A stretch of 45,684 nucleotides of DNA, taken from Bacteroidota bacterium. Lineage in GTDB: Bacteria > Bacteroidota > Ignavibacteria > Ignavibacteriales > Ignavibacteriaceae. The notes beneath the pieces were generated by a model that saw nothing but the letters and a program-made list of their open reading frames with translations, made no database searches and was not told the DNA's origin. Location: NCBI GenBank assembly GCA_021777835.1, contig JAJYDC010000021.1:1-45684 (forward strand), given 5' to 3'. A program made the translations under genes and the position numbers. Below are positions 22,255-35,462 of the stretch, piece after piece (position 1 is the stretch's first letter; each line of letters begins with the position of its first letter).

Positions 22255-22701
22255 ATGTTAGACGATTTAGACATTAAAATATTAAATATTCTACAAAAGA
22301 ACGGCAGAACAAAAAGAAATGAAATTGCCGAGGCTATCGGTCTTTCTATACCTTCTGTAAGCGAAAGACTTCATAAACTTGAAGAAAGAGGCGTAATTGA
22401 GGGATATTATACAAAAGTAAATAAAAAAGCGTTCGGGTATGACATAATGGCTTATATTCTAGTGACAATGGAGTCATCCAAACATTATAAATCATTCATC
22501 CCCCGAGTAGAAAAAACTCCGCAGATTATCGAATGCCACTCTGTTCTTGGCGAAGGCTCTCATTTATTAAAAGCAATTGTAAAAAAAACTGAATCTTTGG
22601 AAAACCTTCTTAGCGAAATTCAATCTTGGCCCGGAGTAATTTCCACAAAAACAACTTTTGTTCTTTCCACAATAAAGGAAACAACAGCAATAGACATTTA
22701 A
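22255..22701 (+). CDS. Lrp/AsnC family transcriptional regulator
   Basis: A 148-residue regulator. Residues 1-60 form the Lrp helix-turn-helix (LDDLDIKILNILQKNGRTKRNEIAEAIGLS followed by SVSERLHKLEERGVIEGY), and the rest is an AsnC/RAM ligand-binding domain (CHSVLGEGSHLLKAIVK). It is 33 bases upstream of glutamine synthetase on the same strand, so it likely senses an amino acid and controls the glnA operon, possibly also itself. AGGTG precedes the ATG. Confidence 0.92.
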   Translation: MLDDLDIKILNILQKNGRTKRNEIAEAIGLSIPSVSERLHKLEERGVIEGYYTKVNKKAFGYDIMAYILVTMESSKHYKSFIPRVEKTPQIIECHSVLGEGSHLLKAIVKKTESLENLLSEIQSWPGVISTKTTFVLSTIKETTAIDI

Positions 22702-22734: not shown

Positions 22735-24162
22735 ATGGCAAAAACAAATTCTCCATTAGATGGTGTTTTTAGTTTTATCAAAACTAAGGGGGTTAAATTT
22801 GTAGATCTTAAATTTATGGACTTTCCAGGTCAATGGCAGCATTTTACAGTACCAGTATCGCAGTTCAAAGAAAATTCATTTGTGGATGGATTCGGCTTTG
22901 ATGGGTCTTCAATACGCGGTTGGAAAGCAATCAATGAAAGTGATATGTTAATTATTCCAGATTCTAAAACAATGAATATGGATCCTTTCGTAGAATCTCC
23001 TACTGTCAGTTTTATTTGCGATGTTTATGAACCCTCAACGAAAGAAAAATATTCCAGATGCCCCAGAAATATAGCTCATAAAGCGGAAGCATATTTAATT
23101 TCAACAGGAATTGCGGATACAGCCTTTTTTGGTCCTGAAGCTGAATTCTTTATTTTTGACGATGTAAGATTTGATTCACAGCCTAACAGCAGTTTCTACT
23201 TTGTAGATTCTATTGAAGGAAAGTGGAATAGCGGAAGGGAAGAGTCTCCAAACTTAGGTTATAAACCAAGGTACAAAGAAGGATATTTCCCCGTGCCGCC
23301 TACAGATTCTCTGGTCGACCTTCGTAATGAAATGGTGCTTAATTTGATAGATGCCGGTATTGATGTTGAGGCACAACATCACGAAGTGGCAAGCGGAGGT
23401 CAATGCGAAATTGACTTACGTTTTGAACCACTTGTAAAAGCAGCAGACCAGCTAATGTTGTTTAAATATATTGTTAAGAATACTGCTAAAAAGAACAACA
23501 AAACCGTTACTTATATGCCTAAACCAATTTTTGGAGATAATGGAAGCGGTATGCACGTCCACTCAAGTTTGTGGAAAAAAGGGAAACCACTTTTTGCAGG
23601 TTCCGGATATGCTGGTTTAAGTGAAATGGCTTTATATTTTATCGGGGGACTGTTAAAACATGCACCGTCACTTCTTGCATTTACAAATCCGACGACAAAT
23701 TCTTATAAAAGACTTGTTCCAGGATTTGAAGCGCCAGTTAATTTGGCATATTCTCAACGCAATAGAAGCGCTTCTTGCAGAATTCCGATGTACTCGAACA
23801 GCCCAAAGGCTAAAAGAGTCGAATTTAGATGCCCTGATCCAGCTGCAAATCCTTATTTAGCATTCCCAGCAATTTTATTAGCAGGAATAGATGGTATCAT
23901 CAATAGAATTGATCCGGGTGAACCACTTGACAAAGATATATATGATATGTCTCCAGAAGAATTAAAGGATGTTCCGTCAACTCCGGGAAGCTTAGGAGAA
24001 GCGTTAAAAGCCTTAGCAGATGATCATGAATATCTGTTGAAGGGCGATGTTTTTACTTCCGACGTAATTGAAACATGGATTCAATATAAAACCGATAAGG
24101 AAATTAAACCGATGGCTTTGCAGCCACATCCTTATGAGTTCTCTTTATACTATGATGTTTAG
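22735..24162 (+). CDS. glnA: Glutamine synthetase type I
   Basis: A 475-residue GSI enzyme joining ammonia to glutamate with ATP. Signatures in order are [55 protein letters not shown], the long [22 protein letters not shown] stretch and [15 protein letters not shown]. Near the end [12 protein letters not shown] keeps the tyrosine that is adenylylated in GSI-beta enzymes, so covalent regulation is possible. It is the last gene of an Lrp-glnA unit and is followed by a strong terminator. Confidence 0.97.
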
Positions 24163-24183
24163 TTTGATGATCCGATAAAAATG

Positions 24184-24213
24184 AAGGGCGAATTTCATTC
24201 GCCCTTTTTTATT
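24184..24213 (+). terminator. Strong intrinsic terminator of glnA
   Basis: AAGGGCGAAT (24184-24193) pairs perfectly with ATTCGCCCTT (24197-24206) around a TTC loop, followed by a T-rich tract (TTTTATTTTT), 21 bases after the glnA stop. This is the clearest rho-independent terminator in the window. Confidence 0.92.
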
Positions 24214-24270
24214 TTTAAAATATATTGAAATAATCTAATTTATTATAATACAATAAGATAATAATATAAA

Positions 24271-24304
24271 AGTCACAAATAAGTAACAAAATACTTTGAA
24301 AAAA
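24271..24304 (+). repeat. Candidate left attachment site / integrase arm repeat
   Basis: AGTCACAAA (24271-24279) is followed 12 bases on by AGTAACAAAA (24283-24292) and then by TTTGAAAAAA. The same order and spacing occurs at 30335-30368 in direct orientation, just beyond the integrase start. 27 of 34 bases agree without gaps. Short repeats next to an integrase are typical of its binding sites. Confidence 0.45.
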
Positions 24305-24337
24305 CAACAGATATAATGGAAAAAAATATAAATTAAA

Positions 24338-24369
24338 TGGTTGCGCAAACCTCATGATTTGCTCAACCA
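24338..24369 (-). terminator. Stem-loop after lipoprotein pseudogene
   Basis: TGGTTGCGCAAA (24338-24349) pairs with TTTGCTCAACCA (24358-24369), 11 of 12 positions, around an eight-base loop. Read on the minus strand it lies 25 bases after the pseudogene stop and is followed by T-rich DNA (a run of seven T further on), so it may end transcription of the cargo genes. Confidence 0.5.
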
Positions 24370-24394
24370 CTTATAAAAATCATTATCAAATATA

Positions 24395-24770
24395 TTATTG
24401 CTGTTTCTCTAAAATTGCATTTACATTATTTTGATCGAATCTATACCGGGCTCCGGTAACTATATCAATTCTACTGGAACCAAGCCACCTATAATATCTA
24501 AGATTACTCAGCCAGCCCCTACACCGTTTGTAATTCGGTAACTCTTAGTCTGATAACCAGTTTTTTTGAACTCGACAGTATATTCTTGGTTTCATTTAAG
24601 CCTATCTTACAAGGCGTATCTCCAGTTTTCGCTCCGTTTGTTCTAACTTCGGCAGAGCCTTGACCTCCATCAAAACTCATATTCTCATTAGTACCTTGAA
24701 AAATAAAAGCACAACCATTGAAGATAAATGCGGCTACTGCAATTAAACAAAAAAAGTCCCTAACTTGCAC
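24395..24770 (-). pseudogene. Decayed PEGA-type lipoprotein gene
   Basis: The reading frame from GTG 24770 encodes a lipoprotein signal ending FNGC, then AFIFQGTNENMSF and AEVRTNGAKTGDTP, which fit the family pattern 'GCAxIFxGTxxxVxFxSxPxGAxVxxNGxxxGxTP'. After LNETK (near 24585) the frame is lost, but a one-base shift restores YTVEFKKTGYQTKSYRITNG as expected for the family. That frame meets TGA at 24508-24510 where Trp is expected, continues VILDIIGGLVPVE, and after a second shift near 24450 resumes DIVTGARYRFDQNNVNAIL to a TAA at 24395. Two frameshifts and one stop make it a pseudogene (or sequencing errors, less likely with three lesions). Confidence 0.8.
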
Positions 24771-24876
24771 ATTTGTTCAATTATCTTCACTTTTCGTATT
24801 ATTTTCTTATCATTTATCTTAAAGAAATCATTTTACAAAAGCGCCGCAATATATTTTACGGCACTTATAAATATAA

Positions 24877-25545
24877 TTATGGATTGAATTGATAAGTATA
24901 AGTATAGCCACTCAACCAACCCCAAATGGTACCTGTTAGTGCACCCAAGGGAATACCAACGATATAAATAAATATATTCTTGTGGCTTCGGTTATAGACA
25001 TCATTTCTGTTTACAAATTGATCTAGGATGTAACTTACACCAAATCCTGATACTGCACCAATTAGAAATCCTGACGGAATACCAAGCCAGTGATTTTTGT
25101 AATTTACTTCTTTTACTTTTTTAAGTGGAATTTTTTCACCAAATACGTTTTCCCTTACAGTATATTCTATTGAAGAATCAGGAAGTATTCTGACGTCATC
25201 ACCTTTTAATTTCTTTCCGTTTGTCAAAATAACTTCATGCAATGGATAGGTAAAATCCGTATCATAATATTCTTTTATTTCTTTAACAGAACTTCGCCTT
25301 AATATAACCGTATGTTTTATGTTCGTTATAGCCAGAAGGCTATCATCGGATAAAATAGCACCGTAAGGAACTGAAAATGAGCTGTCGTTTGATAAAGTAA
25401 CATTTATATTTTTATATTTAACTGAATTATTAAAATCTTCATAGAATTTTTCTTTAGAAGAAAAATCTTTAATTGTATAAGTTGAGGAGCAGCCTAAAAT
25501 GACTAAGGAAGAAAATAATACTATTAAATAATAAATTGATTTCAT
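24877..25545 (-). CDS. Lipoprotein of unknown function with C-terminal glycine-rich membrane segments
   Basis: A 222-residue protein from ATG 25545; a longer upstream frame exists but this start directly gives a lipoprotein signal (KSIYYLIVLFSSLVILGCSS, lipid-attached Cys19). The middle part is strand-rich and polar, with two 'VILRRSSVKEIKEY' and 'VILTNGKKLKGDDV' elements resembling repeats found in envelope proteins with small beta-domains. The C-terminus has two glycine-rich hydrophobic segments (about residues 155-178 and 195-215). It starts 16 bases after the preceding lipoprotein gene. Function unknown. Confidence 0.75.
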   Translation of the reverse strand: MKSIYYLIVLFSSLVILGCSSTYTIKDFSSKEKFYEDFNNSVKYKNINVTLSNDSSFSVPYGAILSDDSLLAITNIKHTVILRRSSVKEIKEYYDTDFTYPLHEVILTNGKKLKGDDVRILPDSSIEYTVRENVFGEKIPLKKVKEVNYKNHWLGIPSGFLIGAVSGFGVSYILDQFVNRNDVYNRSHKNIFIYIVGIPLGALTGTIWGWLSGYTYTYQFNP

Positions 25546-25561
25546 AACAGTCCTTCTTAAA

Positions 25562-26761
25562 TTAATTAGCGACGTATTGAACGCGGCCCGTATAATATGA
25601 ATCGGATATATACCAGATACCATAGGGCCAAATACAATTTGTACATGGATTAGAAGTATCACACTTCCATATAATTTCAATCTGTTTTTCCTGCCTTAAA
25701 AGCCATCCGTTTTCCCATGCATCTGTACAGAAACTTTGTAATGCAGTTAAATCACCTGTTCCTGCCCAAAGCCATATCTGGTTAATATTTTGATCTGTGC
25801 CATTCGCTAATTTAAAACAACAGTCCCAATATCCCCAATGTGCCAAAACATTATCTAGCCAATTTGAAAAAACGTGAGCAGGGCTGTAATAATTTGTATA
25901 TTCATTCCAATAATCACAAGGGCTCCCACAGGCATCTGCTGCATATGTGTCGCACATTACATAATAATTACTGCCCTGATATAATCCTAATTGCGCACCC
26001 CAATTATACCATTTTGCGCATGCTGTTTTTTCTGGCCAATTAAAATCAGTAAGCAAAACTTTGGCACCAGTGTTCCAATTGTTGATCAAAGACTCCAAGC
26101 TTTTAGTATCTGTGTACGAATAACTATATTTTGCAGGTTCATCAATCTCATAATACCCACATTTTGAATAGTGCTTAGAAGTATCTTGAAGTATTGCAAG
26201 TGCATTAGTAGGATTTAAGTAGGAGACCATAATATTAGAATAGGGAAATCCAGCACCATGTACTGTTTCAATATTATCAAAACTAGAAGCTGCATATAAA
26301 GAAAACCCATAAATGTTTTTAGCATCAGAACACGATATTAAATTCAAATCATTTGAAATTCCTAAAGATTTTCCGGCGACAGCTTGAAAATCCATTTCTT
26401 GTTCATAATCGTATTCTAAATGAACTCCACATGTTAAAAGGTTAGGAGATATAACATTAGTCCTGGTAGAAATATTTTTATGAGTAGAGAAATATTTATC
26501 TACCATTGCAATCTTTTCAGCAGACATGCTTCTGCTTACTAGTATTGTTTTCTTGCTTAACGGCAAGTAGACAGAAGTGTCGGGTGAAATGGAATTTGTA
26601 TTAGTTATTTGCTTAGCCATAGATTTTGTATTAAGCGAAGTGGTTTTGCTTTGTGTGTTAGGTGGCGAAGTGATTGCATTTTCGCTGCTGCAACTTTGCA
26701 AAATAACAGTGAAAAGGGAAAGAAGAACAAAAAGGATTGAAACGTGGATTAAGTTTTTCAT
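25562..26761 (-). CDS. Large secreted lipoprotein of unknown function
   Basis: A 399-residue protein. ATG 26761 is chosen over 26773 because GGGAG lies five bases before it; the signal ends in a lipobox LQSC (Cys24). A Ser/Thr-rich linker (about 25-75) is followed by a domain very rich in Trp, Tyr and Cys, including YYEIDEPAKYSYSY, VLLTDFNWPEK, and WDCCFKLANG, and a Cys-rich C-terminus (CDTSNPCTNC). The EIDEP and VLLTDFNWP strands recall TIM-barrel glycosidase-like folds, but no known family is recognised. It is the first of a two-gene lipoprotein unit inside or beside the mobile element. Confidence 0.75.
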   Translation of the reverse strand: MKNLIHVSILFVLLSLFTVILQSCSSENAITSPPNTQSKTTSLNTKSMAKQITNTNSISPDTSVYLPLSKKTILVSRSMSAEKIAMVDKYFSTHKNISTRTNVISPNLLTCGVHLEYDYEQEMDFQAVAGKSLGISNDLNLISCSDAKNIYGFSLYAASSFDNIETVHGAGFPYSNIMVSYLNPTNALAILQDTSKHYSKCGYYEIDEPAKYSYSYTDTKSLESLINNWNTGAKVLLTDFNWPEKTACAKWYNWGAQLGLYQGSNYYVMCDTYAADACGSPCDYWNEYTNYYSPAHVFSNWLDNVLAHWGYWDCCFKLANGTDQNINQIWLWAGTGDLTALQSFCTDAWENGWLLRQEKQIEIIWKCDTSNPCTNCIWPYGIWYISDSYYTGRVQYVAN

Positions 26762-27039
26762 ATTAACTCCCATTAAAATTAAAAAAAAATAATTTTGTAT
26801 AATATACGTTATAAGAAGGTGCGAAGCAAAAAAGCCCCTTTCTATACTTAAATTTAGCTAATTTTTACTAAAATAAGGAAATCTTAAAGTTAAAAATTAC
26901 AAAACAATAGGTAAAATTTAGCATTTTACTGATAAATTTAATGAAACATAATTTGCTTAAGATGATTTTTCATTGGAAAAGAACAAAATTTTAACGATTT
27001 ACATTACTTATGAAACTTTATTCTTTTTTTTGACTTGAA

Positions 27040-27058
27040 AGTCGAAAATAGTTACAAG
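27040..27058 (+). repeat. Weaker copy of the att-like repeat beside rep
   Basis: AGTCGAAAATAGTTACAAG (27040-27058) resembles AGTCACAAAATAGTAACAAA at the right end, with one gap and two or three mismatches. It ends three bases before the rep stop codon, so it could mark a smaller element of about 3.3 kb, or be an internal integrase site. The rest of 26774-27061 shows no gene. Confidence 0.3.
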
Positions 27059-27061
27059 TTT

Positions 27062-27991
27062 TTATAATTTTTTCCTTCTTGCTTTTTCAAGTTTTAGTTT
27101 TTCATAGTCTTGATCTTGCACAAAAATTTCACCGGTCTTATCATTAATCCAATTCTTTTCCTTATTCATATAATTAAAGGTCTCAATTAATTTAGCATCC
27201 TCAATATCATTGAATTTTTCTTCTTTTGATTCAATTGTTTCTTTAGTTAAATGAATATTTTTTGCAGTAAATAATCTCTTTCCCTCTATTGCTTTTAATA
27301 AATGATATACCATTCTTATATTACTTACTGTTATATCATTTATCTTAAATAAATATTTAAAATTTTCTAATATACTTTTTTCTTGCTTTTCTAAATATTG
27401 AGCTTTGATATTAGCTTTTTCCTTAAAGTATTTAAGCCAAAAATCTATTAGTAATTTCCCGTATTCAATTACCTCTGTCTCTTTTTGACCGGCTAACAAA
27501 ATATGAAAATGAACATTATAAGTATTTGACTTTTCATTTAATGTAGTTTCAAAACTTCTAAACATTTTTATTGTTTTATTTAGTCCCCTATAGGCTTTAT
27601 CCTTTCTAAGAGATGAGTTATTAAAGAAGTCATACATTTTATCAATCGTTGACTTTAAATCGCTCTGACCTGGATTTCTGACCGTTAAAACCATATGATA
27701 TTTAATGTTCTCTCCTTTAATAGGGTCTAAATATTTATCTAAAAACTTTGCTAACCTAATAGAATTACAAACTGAGCAAGTTTTTTCTTTACAAAATATA
27801 GATTTTACAACACCGTTAGAATAGATTTCCAAACGAGAAGAACATTTAATTTGTCTAATCATTCTTTTTATCATCATTTCATCATTGGGAAAATTTGCCT
27901 TTACAAAAGCTAACATTTTATAAGCAAACTTAGAGGATAATTTTTTCTTTAGACCTCTTTTGGCAATCAGAGATTTATCAGTGAGAAGCAT
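27062..27991 (-). CDS. Rolling-circle replication initiator (HUH endonuclease, Rep_1-like)
   Basis: A 309-residue protein with rolling-circle Rep motifs: a Cys cluster C67, C72, C75 (CKEKTCSVCNSIR), motif 1 YHMVLTVRNPGQ (about 98-109), the metal-binding HFH at 161-163 (motif 2, HUH) and the tyrosine motif KYLFK with Tyr213 and Lys216 (motif 3). These fit Rep proteins of pC194/pUB110-type plasmids, which nick one strand at an origin and stay joined to the 5' end. Lys-rich C-terminus. It starts 18 bases after the HTH gene, so it shares a transcript. No ssDNA primase or mobilization protein is near. A 21-bp-stem hairpin at 29144 is a candidate origin. Confidence 0.8.
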   Translation of the reverse strand: MLLTDKSLIAKRGLKKKLSSKFAYKMLAFVKANFPNDEMMIKRMIRQIKCSSRLEIYSNGVVKSIFCKEKTCSVCNSIRLAKFLDKYLDPIKGENIKYHMVLTVRNPGQSDLKSTIDKMYDFFNNSSLRKDKAYRGLNKTIKMFRSFETTLNEKSNTYNVHFHILLAGQKETEVIEYGKLLIDFWLKYFKEKANIKAQYLEKQEKSILENFKYLFKINDITVSNIRMVYHLLKAIEGKRLFTAKNIHLTKETIESKEEKFNDIEDAKLIETFNYMNKEKNWINDKTGEIFVQDQDYEKLKLEKARRKKL

Positions 27992-28009
27992 CTTTGCCTG
28001 ACTTGTTTC

Positions 28010-28315
28010 TTACTTGTCAAGAGAAGGCAAAGTATTTGAGTTTTGCTCATGCTTTTGGGCAAATTCTTCTAAAGTGTCTAACCTGGATTTTGTTATCCAC
28101 TGGCTTAATTCAGCTTTATTGAAATAAAGTTTCTTCCCGGATGGTTTGTAGAAAGGAATTTTGTTTTTATAAACTAAATTATAAAGGTAAGATTTTTTTA
28201 GCCTTAAATATATGGCTGCTTCATCTGCATTGATAAATTCATTGGTTTGAGCTGTTAATTTAGAATTTATTTCTTGTAATGAATTATAAATATTAGAAAT
28301 ATTTTTTGAATACAT
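28010..28315 (-). CDS. Excisionase-family helix-turn-helix protein
   Basis: A 101-residue protein with a MerR-like HTH_17 domain in its second half: FINADEAAIYLRLKKSYLYNLVYK, then IPFYKPSGKKLYFNKAELSQWI. Such proteins serve as excisionase or repressor in small Bacteroidetes elements. Its N-terminal 25 residues are helical. The ATG lies just beside a perfect 12-bp inverted repeat that includes the GGAG ribosome site. It is followed by rep, so it probably controls rep and recombination. Confidence 0.87.
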   Translation of the reverse strand: MYSKNISNIYNSLQEINSKLTAQTNEFINADEAAIYLRLKKSYLYNLVYKNKIPFYKPSGKKLYFNKAELSQWITKSRLDTLEEFAQKHEQNSNTLPSLDK

Positions 28316-28316
28316 T

Positions 28317-28352
28317 TTTCACTCCATTTCATTTTATTTTAATGGAGTGAAA
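28317..28352 (-). promoter_or_regulatory. Perfect 12-bp inverted repeat enclosing the HTH ribosome site
   Basis: TTTCACTCCATT (28317-28328) and AATGGAGTGAAA (28341-28352) are exact reverse complements, separated by 12 bases and ending one base before the HTH start codon. Read on the minus strand, the downstream arm contains GGAG five to ten bases before the ATG. If the RNA folds, the ribosome site is hidden; as DNA it could be a repressor operator. Confidence 0.6.
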
Positions 28353-28370
28353 TTATATTACTGCATGTCT

Positions 28371-28413
28371 GTTATACGGAAGGATATTTTATCCGTTATA
28401 CGTAAAACGGATA
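28371..28413. promoter_or_regulatory. Operator-like repeats GTTATACG
   Basis: GTTATACG occurs at 28371-28378 and again at 28395-28402 (24 bases apart), and TATCCGTT pairs with AACGGATA in the stretch 28390-28413 as a perfect 8-bp inverted repeat. All lie between the stop of the 227-aa gene and the HTH gene, where a repressor or recombination factor would bind. Confidence 0.5.
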
Positions 28414-28415
28414 AA

Positions 28416-29099
28416 TTATTTTTGCTTCTTATTTTTATAGTTCAAAAATCGTTTATAAAATTTTTGTTGCTCTGATTCTTGATCTAATCCAAAAGCTTTT
28501 GCAACGTTAAAAGTAATTGACCTTAATGATCTTTTATCGTTTACTTTTTCTGATTCTTTATGCTTTTGAAGTATCTTTTCAAATTCCTCTATTTCTGAAT
28601 TTATAAAACTTTTCCCTAGAAATTTTTCTCCCTGTGTTGCTTTTCTCTTAAGCTCTTCAATATTATTACTAGTTAAACTTAATTGGTAATCAAAAGTTGC
28701 AAAACAATTTTGCATTGATTCAGTACTACTTTTCTTAATCAATTCATTCATTTGCTCATTTGATTTAATGGTTCCTGTTTCCATATTTCTACAAATAATA
28801 AATAAATTCCAAAATATATGAGGCATTGTAATGGCAGCTAAACTAGTTTTAAATGAAATCTTATTAGCCATAAATAATTTTATATTTTTAGGTACGCCTA
28901 AATTTTCCCAGTGAGTTTTAAACTCGTTATTAAAAATATTATAGATCAATTTCCAATCTACTTGTGAGATGAATTTATTGTCATTATGAAAAAGAAATGA
29001 TTCTTTAAGAAAATGTTTAAAATTATCTTTAAAGGCTACTATAAATTTTTCTTCAGTTAATTTCTCTAGATCATTTAATAGTTTAGTTTGTTCATCCAT
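28416..29099 (-). CDS. Unknown protein of the integrative element
   Basis: A 227-residue, mostly helical protein rich in Lys, Glu, Asn and Phe. No catalytic motif, signal peptide or clear membrane segment is seen; a short hydrophobic stretch (LAAITMPHIFWNLFIIC, about residues 90-106) might be a buried helix. The C-terminus (about 145-227) looks like a coiled coil followed by a basic segment. AGGAG lies just before the ATG. It sits between the integrase and the HTH/rep genes, so a role in replication, mobilization or host-cell control of the element is possible. It may also be unrelated cargo. Confidence 0.6.
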   Translation of the reverse strand: MDEQTKLLNDLEKLTEEKFIVAFKDNFKHFLKESFLFHNDNKFISQVDWKLIYNIFNNEFKTHWENLGVPKNIKLFMANKISFKTSLAAITMPHIFWNLFIICRNMETGTIKSNEQMNELIKKSSTESMQNCFATFDYQLSLTSNNIEELKRKATQGEKFLGKSFINSEIEEFEKILQKHKESEKVNDKRSLRSITFNVAKAFGLDQESEQQKFYKRFLNYKNKKQK

Positions 29100-29143
29100 T
29101 TGACACTCCTATTTTTTCCCCTTCGCTAAATAAAAGATATATC

Positions 29144-29206
29144 GTACAGAAAAAGATGCAACCCTATACAAGCTCGCTTCGCTCGGGGTTGCATCTTTTC
29201 CTGTAC
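29144..29206. other. Near-perfect 21-bp stem with structured loop (candidate origin or ncRNA)
   Basis: Bases 29144-29164 pair with 29186-29206, 20 of 21 positions (one A-C mismatch), around a 21-base loop rich in CG (AGCTCGCTTCGCTCG). A shorter outer pairing of TTTTTCCCC (29113-29121) with GGGGAAAAA (29230-29238) encloses it. It is the largest hairpin in the window and is GC-rich against the surrounding DNA. It lies between the integrase and the unknown gene in an element with a rolling-circle Rep, so it is a good candidate for the replication origin or nick site, or for an RNA element; a terminator role is less likely as no T-run follows. Confidence 0.55.
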
Positions 29207-29271
29207 TCAAAACGCAGTTTTTACGCTTCGGGGAAAAATATTTTGTTTTATAATTCATTTTTTTTTTAATC

Positions 29272-30315
29272 TTAAATGCTTGGTAATTTTGTCATTGCTT
29301 CTTCTACCGTCTTATTAATAATCTTTGCATAGATTTCAGTCATCTTTATTGATTTATGTCCCATCATTTTACTCACTGTATAAATATCAATTCCTGAGCT
29401 TAAAGATAAAGTTGCAAACGTGTGTCTTGCTGAATGAAAAGTGAGAGATTTATTTATGTTAGCATTCTTAGACCATTTTCTTATTTCATTATTTATTGTT
29501 TTCTCTTGCTTAAGTTTAAATACTTTTTCATCTTGATTTATACTCCTTTTATCAATATTTATATATAAATATTTTATAGCGGTTTTAGCTAAAGGTAAAT
29601 ATTCTATTCTCTTTGTCTTCATTTGCCGGAAAGATATTTTGTCTTCATTAATTTCTGACCAGGTCATTTTTTTTATATCTGAAATTCTTAATCCTGTAAA
29701 GCAAGAAAAAATAAATGCTCTCTTAGTTTCAATATTTTTAGTTTCAGTATCTGCCATAGCTTGTATTTCTTCTTTTGTCAAATAGACTCTTTCAATTTCA
29801 TTTAGTTTAACCTTTACATATTTAGCAGGACTTTGTAATATCAATTTATCTTTGACTGCTTTATTAAGTATTGTTTTTATTTTTAATAAGTAAGCCCAAG
29901 CAGTAGAATTTTTATGAACCTTTTCCATTTCAGATTTATAATCCTCAATAAGTTTTTCAGTAATAAGTTTAAATGGTAGCTTTCCATTAATTGTTTTGGG
30001 CTTTACAAAGTTGCTAAAATTATTAAAAACAGATTGAGCAGATTTATTTTTTATATTGACCTTAAAATATTCTAAGAAGTCTTCACCGCCATTTAAATTT
30101 CTTGGTATGTCATTATAATCTGAAATTATTTCAATTTCTCTTTTTGACCGTTTTGTTTCCGCAATTTGCTTTTTAAGCTTTCTCTCCGGATCATTTTTTT
30201 TAATTTTAATATCTAAAAATTCGTAGTGTCTTGAACCTTTGGAATAAATATCCAGGTAAAGAGATTCAGAATTATTGGAAAGTTTCTTTGATCTTAGTTT
30301 AACACTCATTTGCAT
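29272..30315 (-). CDS. Tyrosine recombinase/integrase
   Basis: A 347-residue integrase of the Bacteroidetes type. An N-terminal arm-DNA-binding region (about 1-75), a SAM-like core-binding domain (about 85-160), and the catalytic domain follow in order. Catalytic residues are Arg210 (FTGLRISDI), Lys233 or 235, His294 and Arg297 (HSARHTFA), His320 (MGHKSIKMT) and the nucleophile Tyr329 (EIYAKI). All are intact, so the enzyme should be active. ATG 30309 is an equal candidate start (two codons in). It lies at the right end of the element, next to a repeat shared with the far left end. Confidence 0.92.
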   Translation of the reverse strand: MQMSVKLRSKKLSNNSESLYLDIYSKGSRHYEFLDIKIKKNDPERKLKKQIAETKRSKREIEIISDYNDIPRNLNGGEDFLEYFKVNIKNKSAQSVFNNFSNFVKPKTINGKLPFKLITEKLIEDYKSEMEKVHKNSTAWAYLLKIKTILNKAVKDKLILQSPAKYVKVKLNEIERVYLTKEEIQAMADTETKNIETKRAFIFSCFTGLRISDIKKMTWSEINEDKISFRQMKTKRIEYLPLAKTAIKYLYINIDKRSINQDEKVFKLKQEKTINNEIRKWSKNANINKSLTFHSARHTFATLSLSSGIDIYTVSKMMGHKSIKMTEIYAKIINKTVEEAMTKLPSI

Positions 30316-30334
30316 TTACTCTAATATTTGAACC

Positions 30335-30368
30335 AGTCACAAAATAGTAACAAAAATAATTGAAAGAA
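30335..30368 (+). repeat. Candidate right attachment site / integrase arm repeat
   Basis: AGTCACAAA (30335-30343) then AGTAACAAAA (30346-30355) lie 20 bases upstream of the integrase start. The 34-base stretch agrees with 24271-24304 at 27 positions without gaps, in direct orientation. Confidence 0.45.
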
Positions 30369-30510
30369 AGTGAAAAATGATTAAAGCAAGTGAAGTGGTT
30401 TTTAAGGAAGGAAAGAGAAAAACGTTAAATATGTCATATAATCGGAACTATTTTACATTATATTTCATTTAGCATCAGACTAAATAACTGCTAAAATGTT
30501 ATGCTGTATT

Positions 30511-33500
30511 TTATTTTAAAATTCTAACGAAACCGCCATAACGATTGTTAGGTCTGAAATTTAATTTTTGAAAGAATGCCTTTAAGTAAAAGTGTGTGGT
30601 AACAGTTTTTATCCCATCAGAACTTAATCTAGCACAAAAGTCTTCTATAAGCTTTCCTGCAAGACCGCGACTACGATATTGCCTTGCGATTTCAATTCCT
30701 TCAATTTGAGCAATTTTTGGAAAGAGTAATTTATAACATAAACCGCCGACAATTGTGTCTTCATTGTCGTTATCAACTATTAATAAATAATGAAGATCAT
30801 TCTCAATCTTTAACGGATAATTATCAAGAATAAATAATTTGTAGAGACCGCCTGTTTCCGATGGAGTAACTGGTCTCCTAATAGAGTAAGTTAATCCTAA
30901 AGAGTCCTTAATCATTGTTTTGATTACAAGCTTTGAACTTTCTTCTTCACCACTCGCTGATAGCTCCAAATTAGAATTATAGGATAATTTAGGAAAAGCA
31001 ATTTTGTTAAAAACTTCTTTGTCGGTTTTATCTGTTAGCAATTCAATCAGTTCTAATAATTCTAATCTTTTAACGGCAGGTTGATCCGGAAATTTATTTA
31101 GCGAAAAAATAAGTTTGTCAAACAAAGACAATATATTTCTAGGATAAAAAGAAAAATAAGTTTCTTTGTAAAAAGTGTATCTCATTACTTCAGGATATTT
31201 TTCTAACCGGTATACGGTATACATATTATTTACAAACTCCGCCTTTGCTTTTTTTGTAACCATTGGATCTTCGTTCAACCAATTCCTGTAATCATGGATA
31301 GCACTTGAAACGAAGGAATTTATAAATGGCTGTGACGTTAATTTTTCTAAATAAGGGTCTATTCTTACTGCCAATTCTCTAGTCACAGAGTTTATAGATT
31401 TATTTTGAAATTCATTTTTAATCTTTTTAAGGAATGCAATCCCGTCTTGCAATCCTAGACCTTCCAAACAAGAATCAAAAATCCATTCTGTATAAATATA
31501 GCCCTTACTTTGCGGGTAATTTGAAATTGTTTGTAAATAAAAATTATTGAATAGTGATTCAACCAATTCAGATGGACTTGAGTAATTGTGCCAACCGCTA
31601 ATAGACAATATCTTTGTGCCTTCTTTGAAATAAGGCTCCTGGACGACTACGTTTGATGGAGAAATATGACCGGGGATTACTTCGTAATTGCTGTTCTTTA
31701 GTAAAACGAAAAATGCCGTCATACTCCTTCTAAATAAAATCTCCCATTCACTTATATAATAATTGTTTTGTGAAAAATTGCTTATAGAAGAAAGTTGGCG
31801 AATCTTTTCCCAAACAGAAAGATCATTTATAAAATCAAACGAAACTATTCCCAAGGTTGATCTAAAATTGCCAAGCTTTGGCAGAACATATCCCCCTGAT
31901 GATTTTTGTGCAATTTTAATCATCAAATAGATTGTATCTAAAACTTTTTTACGTGTTATATCCGGTGTAATTAAAATAATAAAATCATAATGATTGAAAT
32001 TTTTCTTATTAATACTTAAGCGGTATAAGAATCTTTTATGTGAAGCGCTAAGCTTTGTAATGTATATTCCGTAATCGCTTACCTCGTTTAGGTTAAAATT
32101 ATCTTCATCAAAAATTAAAAGGAAGGCCTCTTTTAAAAAAGTAGATGTAAATAAAATATTCTCAATACGTTCAACTTCTTTGCCGGAAATAGTATCCTGG
32201 AAAACGATTTTATTTCGCCAATTTTCATGAATTTTTTCATATGAAGAAAGCTTAAGTCTTGCTTCAAACCATTGTGAAAGTTCTTTATAAAGAATTTTTG
32301 CATATTTTGAAATTCTCTTGTCCTGCTTATGCAAAATCCAATTGATCAATTCAGTTCTTATTAAGGGATAAGAAGTTGGATGATGATAAGCATACTTTGT
32401 TATTAAATCTAAAATAAGTTTGAATTGTGAAATAGCTATATCCGAGACTGGCCAACTTAATGTATTGCGATATGATTCCAATCTTTGCCTAATTGCACCT
32501 AAGCGGAATCCTTCCATCTTATCAAAGCTAATTTCTTCAATAATATTTTTATTCAAAAAAGTTTTACCGCTGTTTATAAAAGAAGGTAAATATCTGTTGA
32601 AATCAATTTGTGGTTGGTTCAAAAGAAGAATTTTATAGGCGTAACTTCTTACAGAAAACTTTGGATGGTTAGCAAGACATTCAAGACGCCTGCTGAGAAG
32701 ATTTTCAACCTTGTGCTCAACATTCGGGAAAACGGATTCGATCTTTTTTAGTGATTCAAGAATATCCATTTCTTTTCCAAACAACAATACCGTAATTACG
32801 TTATTTAAATCTTCAATGCCGATAGCGACATGAGAAATATTCACGGTCGAATTATTTTTGTTGCTTTTATTATTACCTCCGAAATCAAAAAATATTTGCG
32901 ATGATATATTTGAGAAATCCATTTCCCAATCTTCTTTACAAACTGCAAAATTAATCAAGTTGCTATTCCCAACCCAAAGAATCGGCTGGCGAACGAATAT
33001 TCCCAGATCAATAGAATCTGACTTTATAACATATTCGAAATCGCCAATACGGGTTCTATTGTGAACGGGATTATTTATGATGTTTAAAAAAATATTTTTA
33101 TTCTTAATTAAAATTCCATTTGGTTTGCATTCAAAATCCTCTTCAGTTAAACTGAGGTCCTTAAGTATCCACAAAGGAATAATTACTTTTTTTGTTCCGC
33201 ATGAAATTCTCAAATCTGATTTTTTATACAATTCATTAATTTCATGTTGAAAATTAGTTTCGATAATTTTTCTTTTGAAAGTACCCTTTGGAGTAAGTTC
33301 TCCTTTGTTTTCTTCAAAATTTCTATTAATAATAGAAAATTTAACAATTCTTTCATATGCGCTTAAACCTAAATTAACTGAAGAGACAATTGAGCTAAAG
33401 TAGTCTCTTAACTTTCCTTGTGATTTAGCTTGGTTTATAAAAGGTTCATTATAATCAGGAACAATTAGAAGCGTGTTATATGGTTTCATATCTCCCGCAA

Positions 33501-35109
33501 CAAAGGCTCGCTTTAAACCGGGTATGTTTTCAAATTTCTTTTCGATAAATGCAGGCGCAACAGTCTGTCCCTTGATATTCTTATAAATATCCTTAACGCG
33601 GTCAATGATAAATAAATAGCCATTTTCATCTTGCTTAAATAAATCTCCGGTTGAAAGCCATTTTGGTTGTTGAGAACCAGCAGGTAAATCGTCTAGATAT
33701 TTTGCAATATATTCACCAGCAATTTGAAGTTCACCGTCATCTGTAAATCTTATTGAGACGCCCGGTAGAGGTTTGCCGACAGAATCCTTTATATATTTTC
33801 CGGGAGGAGTCATGCAAACTCCGCCGGTAGCCTCTGTCATTCCAAAACCACTGCATAGATCAATTCCGCTTGCATTAAAAAACCTGAATACTTTTGGCTC
33901 CAAATACCCAGCTGCAGAAATTCCCCATCTTAAATTGTTTCCGACTAAACCGGATAACACACTTTGTTTAGATAGAATATCCTTCTTTAGAATTATTTCT
34001 TCTTTAAATTTATCATAAATTTGATTCCACCTTAGGGGAATGCTAACGAGACCGGTGGGATTAATTTCCTTCATTAAATTCATTAAGGAATCAACATCAT
34101 TTTTACCAGCAAAAACATACGTTCCGCTCCAGAAAATTGCGCCCATCATTTCAAAATATCTTCCGAATGTATGAAATAAGGGAAGATAGCATAAGAGAAC
34201 TTCATTGTTACCTACCTTTGGCAAAACTGCTGCTCTTGCAAACCTTTTTGATAGAATATTATGGTTTGAAAAGGCAACACCTTTCGGCATTCCAGTGCTG
34301 CCGGAAGTGAACATTACCGTAGATATTTCATCAGATGGAAAATGTTTTCTGTTCCCTAACAGCTTTTGAATTTCATATTCATTAACGTTAGAAAGCATTG
34401 ATTGATAGTTTATTATTTCTTCTTCCTTCGGCAATTCTGAAAGTCCGGTATACACTATTAAAAAAAATGTTTCTGATTTTTCTCTAACTTTTCTTAAAAT
34501 CTCCATGCGCTTTTCTGAGTCGGTAACTACAATATTAAAATAAAGTTTGTTAAAGATGTATAAGAGAGTCTCAATGTTAAAGTGTATATGCAAAGGAGAA
34601 ATAAAGATATCGTATGAAAGGCAAGCCAAGTCGCAGCATGCTGTTTCAAGTGAATTATCAGAATAAATTGCTACTTTGGGGCTAGAGCCTTTCAGCTTGA
34701 AAAATGAAACTGCAATATTTTTGAGAATAGAATCGATCCGTTTATAGGAATAATTATTCCTTATTTTGTCGTTAAAACGAGAGAATAAAATTTTATCGGG
34801 GTGGGTAGATACTCTTTGTTCAAATAGTTTTTGAAACGAATAGTCTGATAGCTTGATAATTTTAAAAACAACTCCAGCCCAACGGTATGTTTCATCAGTT
34901 TGACTTAGATTTAGAAGGAAAGTTGGGTATCTAGTCAAATCTAAAAATTTGTGCCATGTATCGTTTTCGATTTCGGAGGATTTACCAGAGGCAATAATTT
35001 CTTCGGCTGTTTTTAAGATTTCCTTTGCAAGTTGCGGTTCAATGGAATCTGGTAAAGTTACGCCGGCAAGTTTTAATCTCTCCTTAAAGGTGACTGTTAG
35101 TTCTTCCAT
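30511..35109 (-). CDS. Acyl-CoA ligase / unknown central region / GNAT fusion (1532 aa)
   Basis: A very large cytoplasmic protein with three parts. Residues about 90-625 form an AMP-binding adenylation domain of the long-chain acyl-CoA ligase type: P-loop VMFTSGSTGMPKG (265-277), GFGMTEATGG (421-430), STGDL with Asp489, IDRVKD with Arg504, and catalytic Lys near 612 in LTPKGTFKRK. Residues about 635-1390 match no domain I recognise; the sequence is mixed helix and strand, with one short motif-like stretch IPGHISPSNVVVQ. Residues 1394-1532 are a GNAT acyltransferase with the acyl-CoA loop RQYRSRGLAG (1476-1485). A ligase that makes acyl-CoA joined to an enzyme that spends it suggests substrate channelling; alternatively the GNAT could acylate the ligase lysine, as Pat does with Acs. 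ArsC-like gene is 17 bases upstream. Confidence 0.85.
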   Translation of the reverse strand: MEELTVTFKERLKLAGVTLPDSIEPQLAKEILKTAEEIIASGKSSEIENDTWHKFLDLTRYPTFLLNLSQTDETYRWAGVVFKIIKLSDYSFQKLFEQRVSTHPDKILFSRFNDKIRNNYSYKRIDSILKNIAVSFFKLKGSSPKVAIYSDNSLETACCDLACLSYDIFISPLHIHFNIETLLYIFNKLYFNIVVTDSEKRMEILRKVREKSETFFLIVYTGLSELPKEEEIINYQSMLSNVNEYEIQKLLGNRKHFPSDEISTVMFTSGSTGMPKGVAFSNHNILSKRFARAAVLPKVGNNEVLLCYLPLFHTFGRYFEMMGAIFWSGTYVFAGKNDVDSLMNLMKEINPTGLVSIPLRWNQIYDKFKEEIILKKDILSKQSVLSGLVGNNLRWGISAAGYLEPKVFRFFNASGIDLCSGFGMTEATGGVCMTPPGKYIKDSVGKPLPGVSIRFTDDGELQIAGEYIAKYLDDLPAGSQQPKWLSTGDLFKQDENGYLFIIDRVKDIYKNIKGQTVAPAFIEKKFENIPGLKRAFVAGDMKPYNTLLIVPDYNEPFINQAKSQGKLRDYFSSIVSSVNLGLSAYERIVKFSIINRNFEENKGELTPKGTFKRKIIETNFQHEINELYKKSDLRISCGTKKVIIPLWILKDLSLTEEDFECKPNGILIKNKNIFLNIINNPVHNRTRIGDFEYVIKSDSIDLGIFVRQPILWVGNSNLINFAVCKEDWEMDFSNISSQIFFDFGGNNKSNKNNSTVNISHVAIGIEDLNNVITVLLFGKEMDILESLKKIESVFPNVEHKVENLLSRRLECLANHPKFSVRSYAYKILLLNQPQIDFNRYLPSFINSGKTFLNKNIIEEISFDKMEGFRLGAIRQRLESYRNTLSWPVSDIAISQFKLILDLITKYAYHHPTSYPLIRTELINWILHKQDKRISKYAKILYKELSQWFEARLKLSSYEKIHENWRNKIVFQDTISGKEVERIENILFTSTFLKEAFLLIFDEDNFNLNEVSDYGIYITKLSASHKRFLYRLSINKKNFNHYDFIILITPDITRKKVLDTIYLMIKIAQKSSGGYVLPKLGNFRSTLGIVSFDFINDLSVWEKIRQLSSISNFSQNNYYISEWEILFRRSMTAFFVLLKNSNYEVIPGHISPSNVVVQEPYFKEGTKILSISGWHNYSSPSELVESLFNNFYLQTISNYPQSKGYIYTEWIFDSCLEGLGLQDGIAFLKKIKNEFQNKSINSVTRELAVRIDPYLEKLTSQPFINSFVSSAIHDYRNWLNEDPMVTKKAKAEFVNNMYTVYRLEKYPEVMRYTFYKETYFSFYPRNILSLFDKLIFSLNKFPDQPAVKRLELLELIELLTDKTDKEVFNKIAFPKLSYNSNLELSASGEEESSKLVIKTMIKDSLGLTYSIRRPVTPSETGGLYKLFILDNYPLKIENDLHYLLIVDNDNEDTIVGGLCYKLLFPKIAQIEGIEIARQYRSRGLAGKLIEDFCARLSSDGIKTVTTHFYLKAFFQKLNFRPNNRYGGFVRILK

Positions 35110-35126: not shown

Positions 35127-35462
35127 TTATTTTATCCACTCTTTCCAAATCTCCGGCCGGTATCCAATTGTAGCTATATTATGATTCCGCACAACCGGTG
35201 TTTTAAATAAGAGAGGATCGTTAAGCAGTTCGAACATAATATCATAAACCATAAAGCCAAAATTTCGTTTACGGAATTTGGTACCGTTTTTGTCAATCAG
35301 ATCTTCCAAAGAAACAGTGCGCAATATATTTTCAAGTTCGCCTTTTGAAATTCCTTTTTCGGATAGGTCTCTAAATTGAAATTGGATATTCCTCTCCTTA
35401 AAAAAGCGTTCGGCTTTTCGAGTATCATTGCATCTTTTCGTACCGAAAATTTGAATATTCAT
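35127..35462 (-). CDS. ArsC/Spx-family thioredoxin-fold protein
   Basis: A 111-residue ArsC-like protein beginning NIQIFGTKRCNDTRKAERFF, with a single Cys11 and no CxxC, and a C-terminal PVVRNHNIATIGYRPE segment with the cis-Pro and the family's Arg. It may be an arsenate-reductase-like enzyme, a YffB-type protein or a redox adaptor; Spx-like function is unlikely as it lacks CxxC. Bacillithiol-type redox genes are nearby (bshA 2.4 kb upstream). Its stop is 17 bases before the fusion gene, which it likely shares a transcript with. Confidence 0.8.
   Translation of the reverse strand: MNIQIFGTKRCNDTRKAERFFKERNIQFQFRDLSEKGISKGELENILRTVSLEDLIDKNGTKFRKRNFGFMVYDIMFELLNDPLLFKTPVVRNHNIATIGYRPEIWKEWIK

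Follow-up and report, generated by a model that had tools for sequence, protein, structure and literature searches.

A long bacterial fusion of an acyl-CoA ligase, a helical-repeat and pseudokinase-like middle region and a GNAT domain, encoded in part of its family beside citrate-cycle genes

The stretch of DNA analysed here (the window) comprises the 45,684 nucleotides of contig JAJYDC010000021.1 from a Bacteroidota bacterium of the order Ignavibacteriales (assembly GCA_021777835.1), and the subject of this report is a gene on its minus strand for a 1532-amino-acid protein, in which an AMP-forming acyl-coenzyme A (acyl-CoA) ligase of the long-chain acyl-CoA synthetase (LACS) type is joined through a long middle region to a GNAT domain. 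The original prediction, made from the sequence of the window, had proposed such a ligase-GNAT fusion, and the fusion is real: one unbroken frame runs from the ATG at 35109 to the stop at 30511, the plus-strand frame across the same coordinates is riddled with stops, and Pfam domains lie at both ends of the protein. The gene and its parts are as follows.

30511..35109, minus strand: whole fusion gene, 1532 amino acids (from frame reading and full-length homologues)
33217..34824, minus strand: AMP-forming LACS-type ligase, residues 96-631 (from Pfam and invariant residues)
33280..33288, minus strand: residues 608-610, with the invariant Lys608 and with Thr610 in the canonical A10 lysine column (from alignments)
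32890..33216, minus strand: small beta-rich piece, residues 632-740 (from alignment and structure prediction)
32248..32832, minus strand: predicted ARM/HEAT-like helical repeat, about residues 760-954 (from a model with a predicted local distance difference test score, pLDDT, of 86.4, and fold matches)
31387..32184, minus strand: predicted protein-kinase-like fold (Bud32/RIO-like), about residues 976-1241 (from the model, fold matches and residue counts)
30925..31386, minus strand: helical extension, about residues 1242-1395 (from alignment and model)
30514..30924, minus strand: GNAT domain, residues 1396-1532 (from Pfam, profile search and residue counts)

Pfam assigned AMP-binding to residues 96-462 (8e-49; PF00501, 166.8 bits against a cut-off of 29.9), AMP-binding_C_3 to residues 512-631 (2e-13; PF23562, 51.2 bits against 20.8) and Acetyltransf_1 to residues 1434-1518 (5e-7; 30.4 bits against 20.7), and no Pfam family exceeded its cut-off in residues 635-1400 of the window protein. 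The genome of the window has a single copy of the fusion, and its remaining matches to the protein cover the ligase domain only.

The fusion was then found well outside the genome of the window. A pattern scan of one genome per species (84,980 species), a procedure that picks up near relatives only, gave 11 loci labelled Bacteroidetes, Bacteroidales, KSB1, Caldithrix, Ignavibacteriales and two unclassified bacteria. The phyla searched whole were those of the window and of genomes G426 and G427. A whole-genome search with residues 624-1532 detected the fusion in 21 of the 395 genomes sampled from the window's phylum, none of the 21 lying outside the window's class (a figure that may be low, since just two first-look candidates were scored per genome), and in 28 of 59 genomes of relatives, and a profile of the middle region detected it in 10 of 82 genomes from the phylum of the KSB1 genome and in 22 of 40 from Calditrichota, each of these counts including the starting genome. 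For the phylum of genome G428, labelled Bacteroidales, the middle-region profile gave 21/395 on a sample with the same places as the earlier one (that is, the window's phylum), and the loci were identical with the addition of G428. This last genome has two copies of the family (L012 and L237), each lying amid citrate-cycle genes.

Frames that were not clipped by a contig end encoded 1515-1638 amino acids, and the most distant homologues, from the window's class, Calditrichota and the phylum of the KSB1 genome, were 25-28% identical overall to the window protein. A frame of 1532 amino acids whose domain order is kept in other phyla is far beyond chance. Short frames occurred at contig ends (L013/L068, L018, L065, L073/L077, L074, L090, L095, L119/L136, L191, L192, L194 and L195, with L191, L192 and L194 assigned on the ground that they lie no more than 20 bases from the contig start), and one in-frame stop in the G529 copy and a frame break near the contig end in the G544 copy were read as broken copies or sequencing errors. 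No clean split of ligase and GNAT into separate genes was seen among the homologues found, and the pairing of the two that had been proposed is borne out as a lasting one, an old fusion with most family residues kept in both domains. On the family tree, a quick maximum-likelihood reconstruction with Shimodaira-Hasegawa-like approximate likelihood ratio test (SH-aLRT) supports only and with 27 rows flagged for unequal composition, L094 and L101 from the phylum of the KSB1 genome were placed among rows from the window's phylum, possibly by transfer between phyla or because of a misplaced genome.

In the ligase domain, T268, S269, G270, T272, K276, G277, T425, E426, D489, D503, R504 and K506 are present in all 31 aligned homologues (the P-loop, TE, TGD and DRxK motifs), and the intact P-loop, Asp489 and Arg504 noted earlier in the window protein are therefore kept throughout the alignment. 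The best NCBIfam matches were acyl-CoA ligases; since all 25 models shown scored far under their curated cut-offs, the domain is LACS-like and outside any named equivalog. It has PF00501, PF23562 and the motifs TSG[ST]TG, TGD, DRxK and ELT..KR in common with long-chain acyl-CoA synthetases of the PRK06187/FadD11 type and with the adenylation domains of carboxylic acid reductases, and differs from these enzymes in being joined to 900 further residues and in having Thr or Ser at the A10 column.

The A10 lysine is a catalytic residue of ANL enzymes, and it had been taken to be intact in the window protein. It is not: in a gap-free HMMER alignment of the C-terminal ligase subdomain with four carboxylic acid reductase sequences, the canonical column falls on Thr610 and holds Thr in 26 and Ser in 5 of the 31 homologues, and the invariant lysine (Lys608, 31/31) is shifted two residues upstream. 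When 54 loci were scanned, the motif was readable in 38 and no motif was seen in 16. Lys occupied the A10 column in 31 of the readable motifs, and the Lys608/Thr-Ser610 pattern was present in seven, three of them family members (L119, L121 and L136) and four of them ordinary LACS rows (4 of 35 ordinary rows, or three distinct genes, as some genes occur twice). These ordinary stand-alone synthetases, L128 (= L142), L144 and L166, have Lys two residues before the A10 column and Ser in the column; a PDB search with one of them gave a printed alignment that ends before A10. Judged from these alignments, the shift is a minority natural pattern and not a proof of inactivity, and we did not accept that adenylation is dead through the loss of A10, because ordinary LACS carry the same pattern.

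The middle region (residues 635-1390) had been thought to match nothing. In Pfam searches with the middle of 31 members, no family occurred in more than one member (best, Yos9_DD, 0.0014), and there was no Pfam kinase match in the window protein or in these middles. Structure prediction and fold searches, however, gave a helical repeat followed by a kinase-like fold, and no match to a known unrelated active enzyme was found. An AlphaFold2 model of residues 632-1400 built with 31 sequences had a mean pLDDT of 85.3 and a predicted template modelling score (pTM) of 0.79, and a second model, of residues 632-962, had a pLDDT of 86.4 and a pTM of 0.84. By VIA-align 2, the kinase-like part matched the KEOPS chain 8k20_B with Z 10.7 and a root-mean-square deviation (rmsd) of 3.3 Å over 194 aligned residues; the match spans about residues 345-610 of the model, which correspond to residues 976-1241 of the protein. 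The eleven best VIA rows were Bud32/PRPK proteins or complexes with 11-15% identity, and RIO1 came next. Foldseek also gave the Bud32-type kinase fold with a probability of 1.00, the Bud32 rows standing at ranks 5 and 7 after phosphatidylinositol 3-kinase (PI3-kinase)-type rows; the top three of its rows were chains of the PI3-kinase type (3e-5 to 3e-4), which superposed with an rmsd of 16-18 Å over about 600 columns. A PI3-kinase-like reading of the middle, as a helical repeat plus a kinase, may still hold but is not preferred on these models, because the Bud32 superposition (Z 10.7 at 3.3 Å) stands against a poor rmsd for the PI3-kinase chains.

The predicted order of elements fits a kinase, with three N-lobe strands, helix C, two strands, helices D and E and an equivalent of the catalytic loop. 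When the kinase motifs were placed by this predicted element order, and not by a residue-level structural alignment, no column of the strand 1040-1048 had Lys in more than 3 of 31 members (beta3 Lys), Asp was found at position 1148 in just 8 of 31 (HRD Asp) and no Asp was conserved in 1168-1173 (DFG Asp); Asn1153 was retained in 27 of 31. Residues 976-1241 or thereabouts are therefore probably an inactive pseudokinase, similar in fold to the atypical kinases of the Bud32/PRPK and RIO groups and unlike them in that none of the three catalytic residues is conserved. AceK, the isocitrate dehydrogenase kinase/phosphatase, was absent from the Pfam matches of the 31 members (E 0.1) and from the listed fold rows, which excludes nothing, and APH kinase (1/16) and ABC1 kinase (2/16) occurred in too few related genomes to align with the kinase-like part. 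A PDB profile match of the middle to 6leb, a fibrinogen-binding protein (4e-4), fell within the kinase-like part and was set aside as probably fortuitous, given the kinase-like fold of the model at that place. With it, a further family joins the bacterial kinase-fold domains, one that goes undetected by Pfam.

For the ARM/HEAT-like part (about residues 760-954), the Foldseek E value was no better than 0.02 and the VIA Z reached 10.0, which would denote a fold class and not homology, as helical repeats may reach such Z by their common arrangement. The beta-rich piece (residues 632-740) is barely covered by fold matches and has invariant P645, W647, G689, Y693, G714 and N715; W1277, Y1300, R1310 and T1317 are invariant in the helical extension (residues 1242-1395). 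Helical-repeat and kinase-like folds often bind proteins.

At the C-terminal end, a profile of the GNAT domain (30 rows) matched GCN5 best among solved chains (1.2e-10); its 33 matches also include KAT2A/PCAF and GNATs of bacteria. The predicted acyl-CoA loop, RQYRSRGLAG, is present in the window protein. G1455 and G1456 are conserved in 31/31 homologues, R1479 in 28/31 and G1482 in 29/31; position 1484, the last residue of the R/QxxGxG/A loop, is Ala in the window protein and Ser (20), Gly (7) or Ala (4) over the 31, and so departs from G/A in 20 of them. Position 1470 is acidic (E/D) in all 31.

A survey of co-occurring genes, which the original prediction had suggested as a check, placed citrate-cycle genes beside the fusion in part of the family. 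Stretches around 66 loci were gathered and their open reading frames were clustered. Among the 60 loci with a long anchor, a gene for citrate synthase, aconitase or isocitrate dehydrogenase lies at most two genes away in 17, no citrate-cycle gene lies within that distance in 35, and neighbours are too few in 8. In the window's class, citrate (Si)-synthase is upstream on the same strand in 15 loci, two of which have two or three genes in between. The arrangement differs elsewhere: in the phylum of the KSB1 genome, L101 has citrate synthase divergently upstream, and L102 has a different type of citrate synthase together with isocitrate dehydrogenase, convergent downstream; L012 has a divergent aconitase gene on one side and isocitrate dehydrogenase downstream, and L237 has divergent citrate synthase-aconitase genes and isocitrate dehydrogenase downstream (named by clustering). 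The 17 positive loci fall in three parts of the tree, namely L101, L012 and L237 inside the 15-row subfamily of the window, L102, and 13 rows from the window's class or BRH_c32. Mapped on the tree, the neighbour label required 7 changes against 15.0 for shuffled labels (none of 500 shuffles as low); since near relatives inflate this clustering, the different orientations and citrate synthase types weigh more than the shuffle. Over the family stretches as a whole, a citrate-cycle gene was present in 19 of 66 and a glutamine synthetase gene in 5 others. A control with the neighbourhoods of 20 ordinary LACS genes, which together span 278 kb (the stretch for one gene being only 3.9 kb) and cover a single phylum, the window's, and a single gene type, gave no match to citrate synthase, aconitase, isocitrate dehydrogenase or glutamine synthetase at 1e-10.

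Two squalene-synthase-type genes (HpnC/HpnD) and hpnE lie upstream of citrate synthase and the fusion in 11 loci (L045, L048, L051, L052, L054-L057, L060, L061 and L017). HpnCDE was not retained as a partner, since the 11 loci belong to one related set and the association is probably synteny. Beside the KSB1 copy L014 there is a convergent acetate/propionate kinase gene.

What the evidence supports most strongly is that ligase, scaffold and GNAT form a single working unit, and that this unit is connected, in at least part of the family, with the step from citrate synthase to glutamate and glutamine. Beyond it, we tentatively read the fusion as a single-chain, ligase-coupled N-acyltransferase whose likeliest acceptors are lysines of the enzymes at the citrate-to-glutamine node, a proposal to which we give less than an even chance and in which we infer the activity of either end, the acyl group, the protein acceptor and the direction of regulation. 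With ATP and CoA, the LACS-type domain would activate a carboxylic acid, such as a fatty acid, or at least bind and sense it; the middle, with its helical repeat and pseudokinase, would be the dock for a partner protein; and the GCN5-like GNAT would take an acyl or acetyl group from CoA and place it on an amine, most likely on lysines of citrate synthase, aconitase, isocitrate dehydrogenase or glutamine synthetase. The supply of acyl-CoA would thereby be coupled to the entry of acetyl units into the citrate cycle. Acylation of citrate-cycle and nitrogen enzymes is a third model, which the gene context adds to the two of the original prediction. Acylation of a protein is somewhat more likely than that of a small molecule, because the GNAT is GCN5-like, the folds of the middle are of a protein-binding type and, as far as the excerpt of PMC11254643 goes, the activity of bacterial citrate synthase and isocitrate dehydrogenase is reported to be altered by acetylation. 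A bolder form of the same proposal seems a good deal less probable to us: the fusion would be a sixth architecture of bacterial protein acyltransferase, which itself forms acyl-CoA from a free acid, perhaps a long-chain one, and passes it on to the GCN5-like domain of the same chain, with the pseudokinase/ARM scaffold capturing citrate synthase, aconitase, isocitrate dehydrogenase or glutamine synthetase. If this were true, the fatty-acid supply would be written straight onto the enzymes of the citrate-to-glutamine node.

Several observations weigh against acylation of these enzymes. No citrate-cycle gene lies within two genes of the fusion in 35 of the 52 judgeable loci, the window among them, and the 19 Calditrichota stretches have none at all, so that of 20 stretches (these and L237) just L237 is positive; the recurring neighbours in Calditrichota, an immunoglobulin-repeat protein and a major facilitator superfamily (MFS) protein, are unrelated to the cycle. 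Thirteen of the 17 positive loci form one related set, and the support from neighbourhoods is indirect. The ligase has no canonical lysine in the A10 column, which makes its turnover uncertain. In GCN5 a glutamate acts as general base, and the corresponding column (1468) is variable over the family, the conserved acid standing two residues on; the GCN5-like GNAT domain shown by the profile would not by itself imply a GCN5-like mechanism. Finally, citrate synthase, aconitase and isocitrate dehydrogenase also supply glutamate, and a small-molecule acceptor fits the same context.

The last point leads to the closest alternative, one of the two models of the original prediction, in which the protein is a small-molecule N-acyl synthase: the GNAT would pass the acyl group of the acyl-CoA made by the ligase to an amine such as an amino acid, with glutamate and glutamine as candidates, and the middle would bind this acceptor or hold the domains together. 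We consider it unlikely, yet close behind protein acylation, since the most plausible acceptor amines arise from the neighbours as well. The route to 2-oxoglutarate, glutamate and glutamine runs through citrate synthase, aconitase, isocitrate dehydrogenase and, in the window's genus, GlnA. The permanent fusion of a maker of acyl-CoA with a user of acyl-CoA would be natural for such an enzyme. What speaks against it is that the GNAT profile is nearest to GCN5 among solved chains, that a scaffold of 750 residues is large for a small acceptor, and that no widely recurring lipid-assembly gene was seen among the annotated neighbours (hpnCDE in the 11 loci, and LpxC/FabZ beside L043).

It is more doubtful that the ligase serves as a sensor, which would bind a fatty acid, acyl-AMP or acyl-CoA without efficient turnover and toggle the GNAT. 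The Thr or Ser of the A10 column in all 31 homologues would agree with this, as would the inactive NDP-forming synthetase domain that is thought to switch the type I/II Pat GNATs, as described in the available part of PMC8556138. The remaining ligase motifs and Lys608 are nevertheless invariant, and the three distinct ordinary LACS genes with the same Lys/Ser pattern indicate that the shift may be harmless.

We regard as improbable the other model of the original prediction, a built-in Pat/Acs switch, in which the ligase is shut off through acylation of one of its lysines by the GNAT on the same chain. Both modules are on one chain, and AMP-forming ligases are known targets of acylation by GNATs (the excerpts of PMC4053389 and PMC11255334); the canonical target column, however, holds Thr or Ser, Lys608 lies in a different motif context, and the citrate-cycle neighbours would be left unexplained. 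No more probable is a joining of the domains by chance with neighbourhoods that are inherited synteny devoid of functional meaning, for, despite the one related set that makes up 13 of 17 citrate-cycle loci, the hpnCDE genes that 11 loci of this set also share, and the missing citrate synthase link in the close kin of the window, the citrate-cycle genes have separate placements and different orientations in distant branches and are found in 0 of 20 control neighbourhoods, and the domain order is kept at 25-28% identity.

The recognised parts of the protein are known folds, and the literature searches yielded no account of an architecture of ligase, helical repeat, pseudokinase and GNAT, nor of this combination with its gene context, within the text that the sources made available; its absence from the literature is not thereby proven. 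Bacterial GNAT protein acetyltransferases have been sorted into five types or architectures, none of which is named as having an AMP-forming ligase or a kinase-like domain in the excerpts of PMC8556138 and PMC11254643. The nearest are the type I/II GNATs (Pat/PatZ and SlPatA), which, according to the part of PMC8556138 available, likewise have a large module of the acyl-CoA synthetase type and a GNAT on one chain, with a presumed link to the acyl-CoA level. The synthetase of Pat is NDP-forming and inactive in that account, whereas the PF00501 domain of the fusion is of the LACS class, which is AMP-forming, and retains almost all of the motifs, and a helical-repeat and kinase-like middle is not described there for Pat. 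The fusion may therefore work on a similar plan to the type I/II GNATs without being a member, its AMP-forming synthetase and its pseudokinase/helical-repeat middle setting it apart.

A more distant analogy, and only an analogy, is with SAGA/NuA4. In SAGA, the Tra1-TRRAP pseudokinase works with GCN5. As far as the partial sources go, a GNAT of the GCN5 type works there in concert with helical repeats and a dead kinase fold, as it might in the fusion, and the differences are that those are separate eukaryotic subunits, that the kinase fold is of the PI3-kinase type and that no ligase takes part. The occurrence of the fusion, with its domain order, in distant bacteria and partly beside citrate-cycle genes suggests an undescribed tie of fatty-acid activation to the control of central metabolism. 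A conserved protein that combines acyl activation, a pseudokinase scaffold and a GNAT in such a setting is a well-defined candidate, testable at low cost, for the way in which poorly studied bacteria link the activation of fatty acids to the flow of carbon and nitrogen through central metabolism.

In the window itself no citrate-cycle gene lies within two genes of the fusion, and the surrounding features are as follows.

22255..22701, plus strand: Lrp/AsnC-like regulator beside glnA
22735..24162, plus strand: type I glutamine synthetase GlnA, convergent with the fusion gene and 6.3 kb from it
27062-27991: Rep_1 replication protein (within 24163-30510)
28010-28315: HTH_17 protein (within 24163-30510)
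29272-30315: integrase (within 24163-30510)
35127..35462, minus strand: ArsC/Spx-like protein of 111 amino acids, 17 bp upstream of the fusion gene

In the window's genus, glnA, with an Lrp/AsnC-like regulator beside it, is convergent and next to the fusion, 46, 47, 65 and 266 bp away in L011, L013, L107 and L109; it is 1099 bp away in L010, and L108, of the same genus, has other genes there. The distance of 6.3 kb in the window is due to the genes for the integrase, the Rep_1-type replication protein, the HTH_17 protein and others, which separate glnA from the fusion, and a mobile element seems to lie between the two (24163-30510). A 15-nt near-repeat, 93% alike (26633-26647 and 30388-30402), is a candidate attachment site and may be due to chance.

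The ArsC-like gene had been put forward as a partner transcribed together with the fusion. It does adjoin the fusion, 17 bp upstream on the same strand, and is probably co-transcribed with it; as a lasting partner it was set aside, since among the neighbourhoods compared it is common only to L009, L010 and L011, just four close loci with that of the window. At 42768-45227 of the window there is a second fusion of acyl activation and acyl transfer, an 819-aa protein with an AMP-binding ligase, a phosphopantetheine carrier and a PlsC-type acyltransferase.

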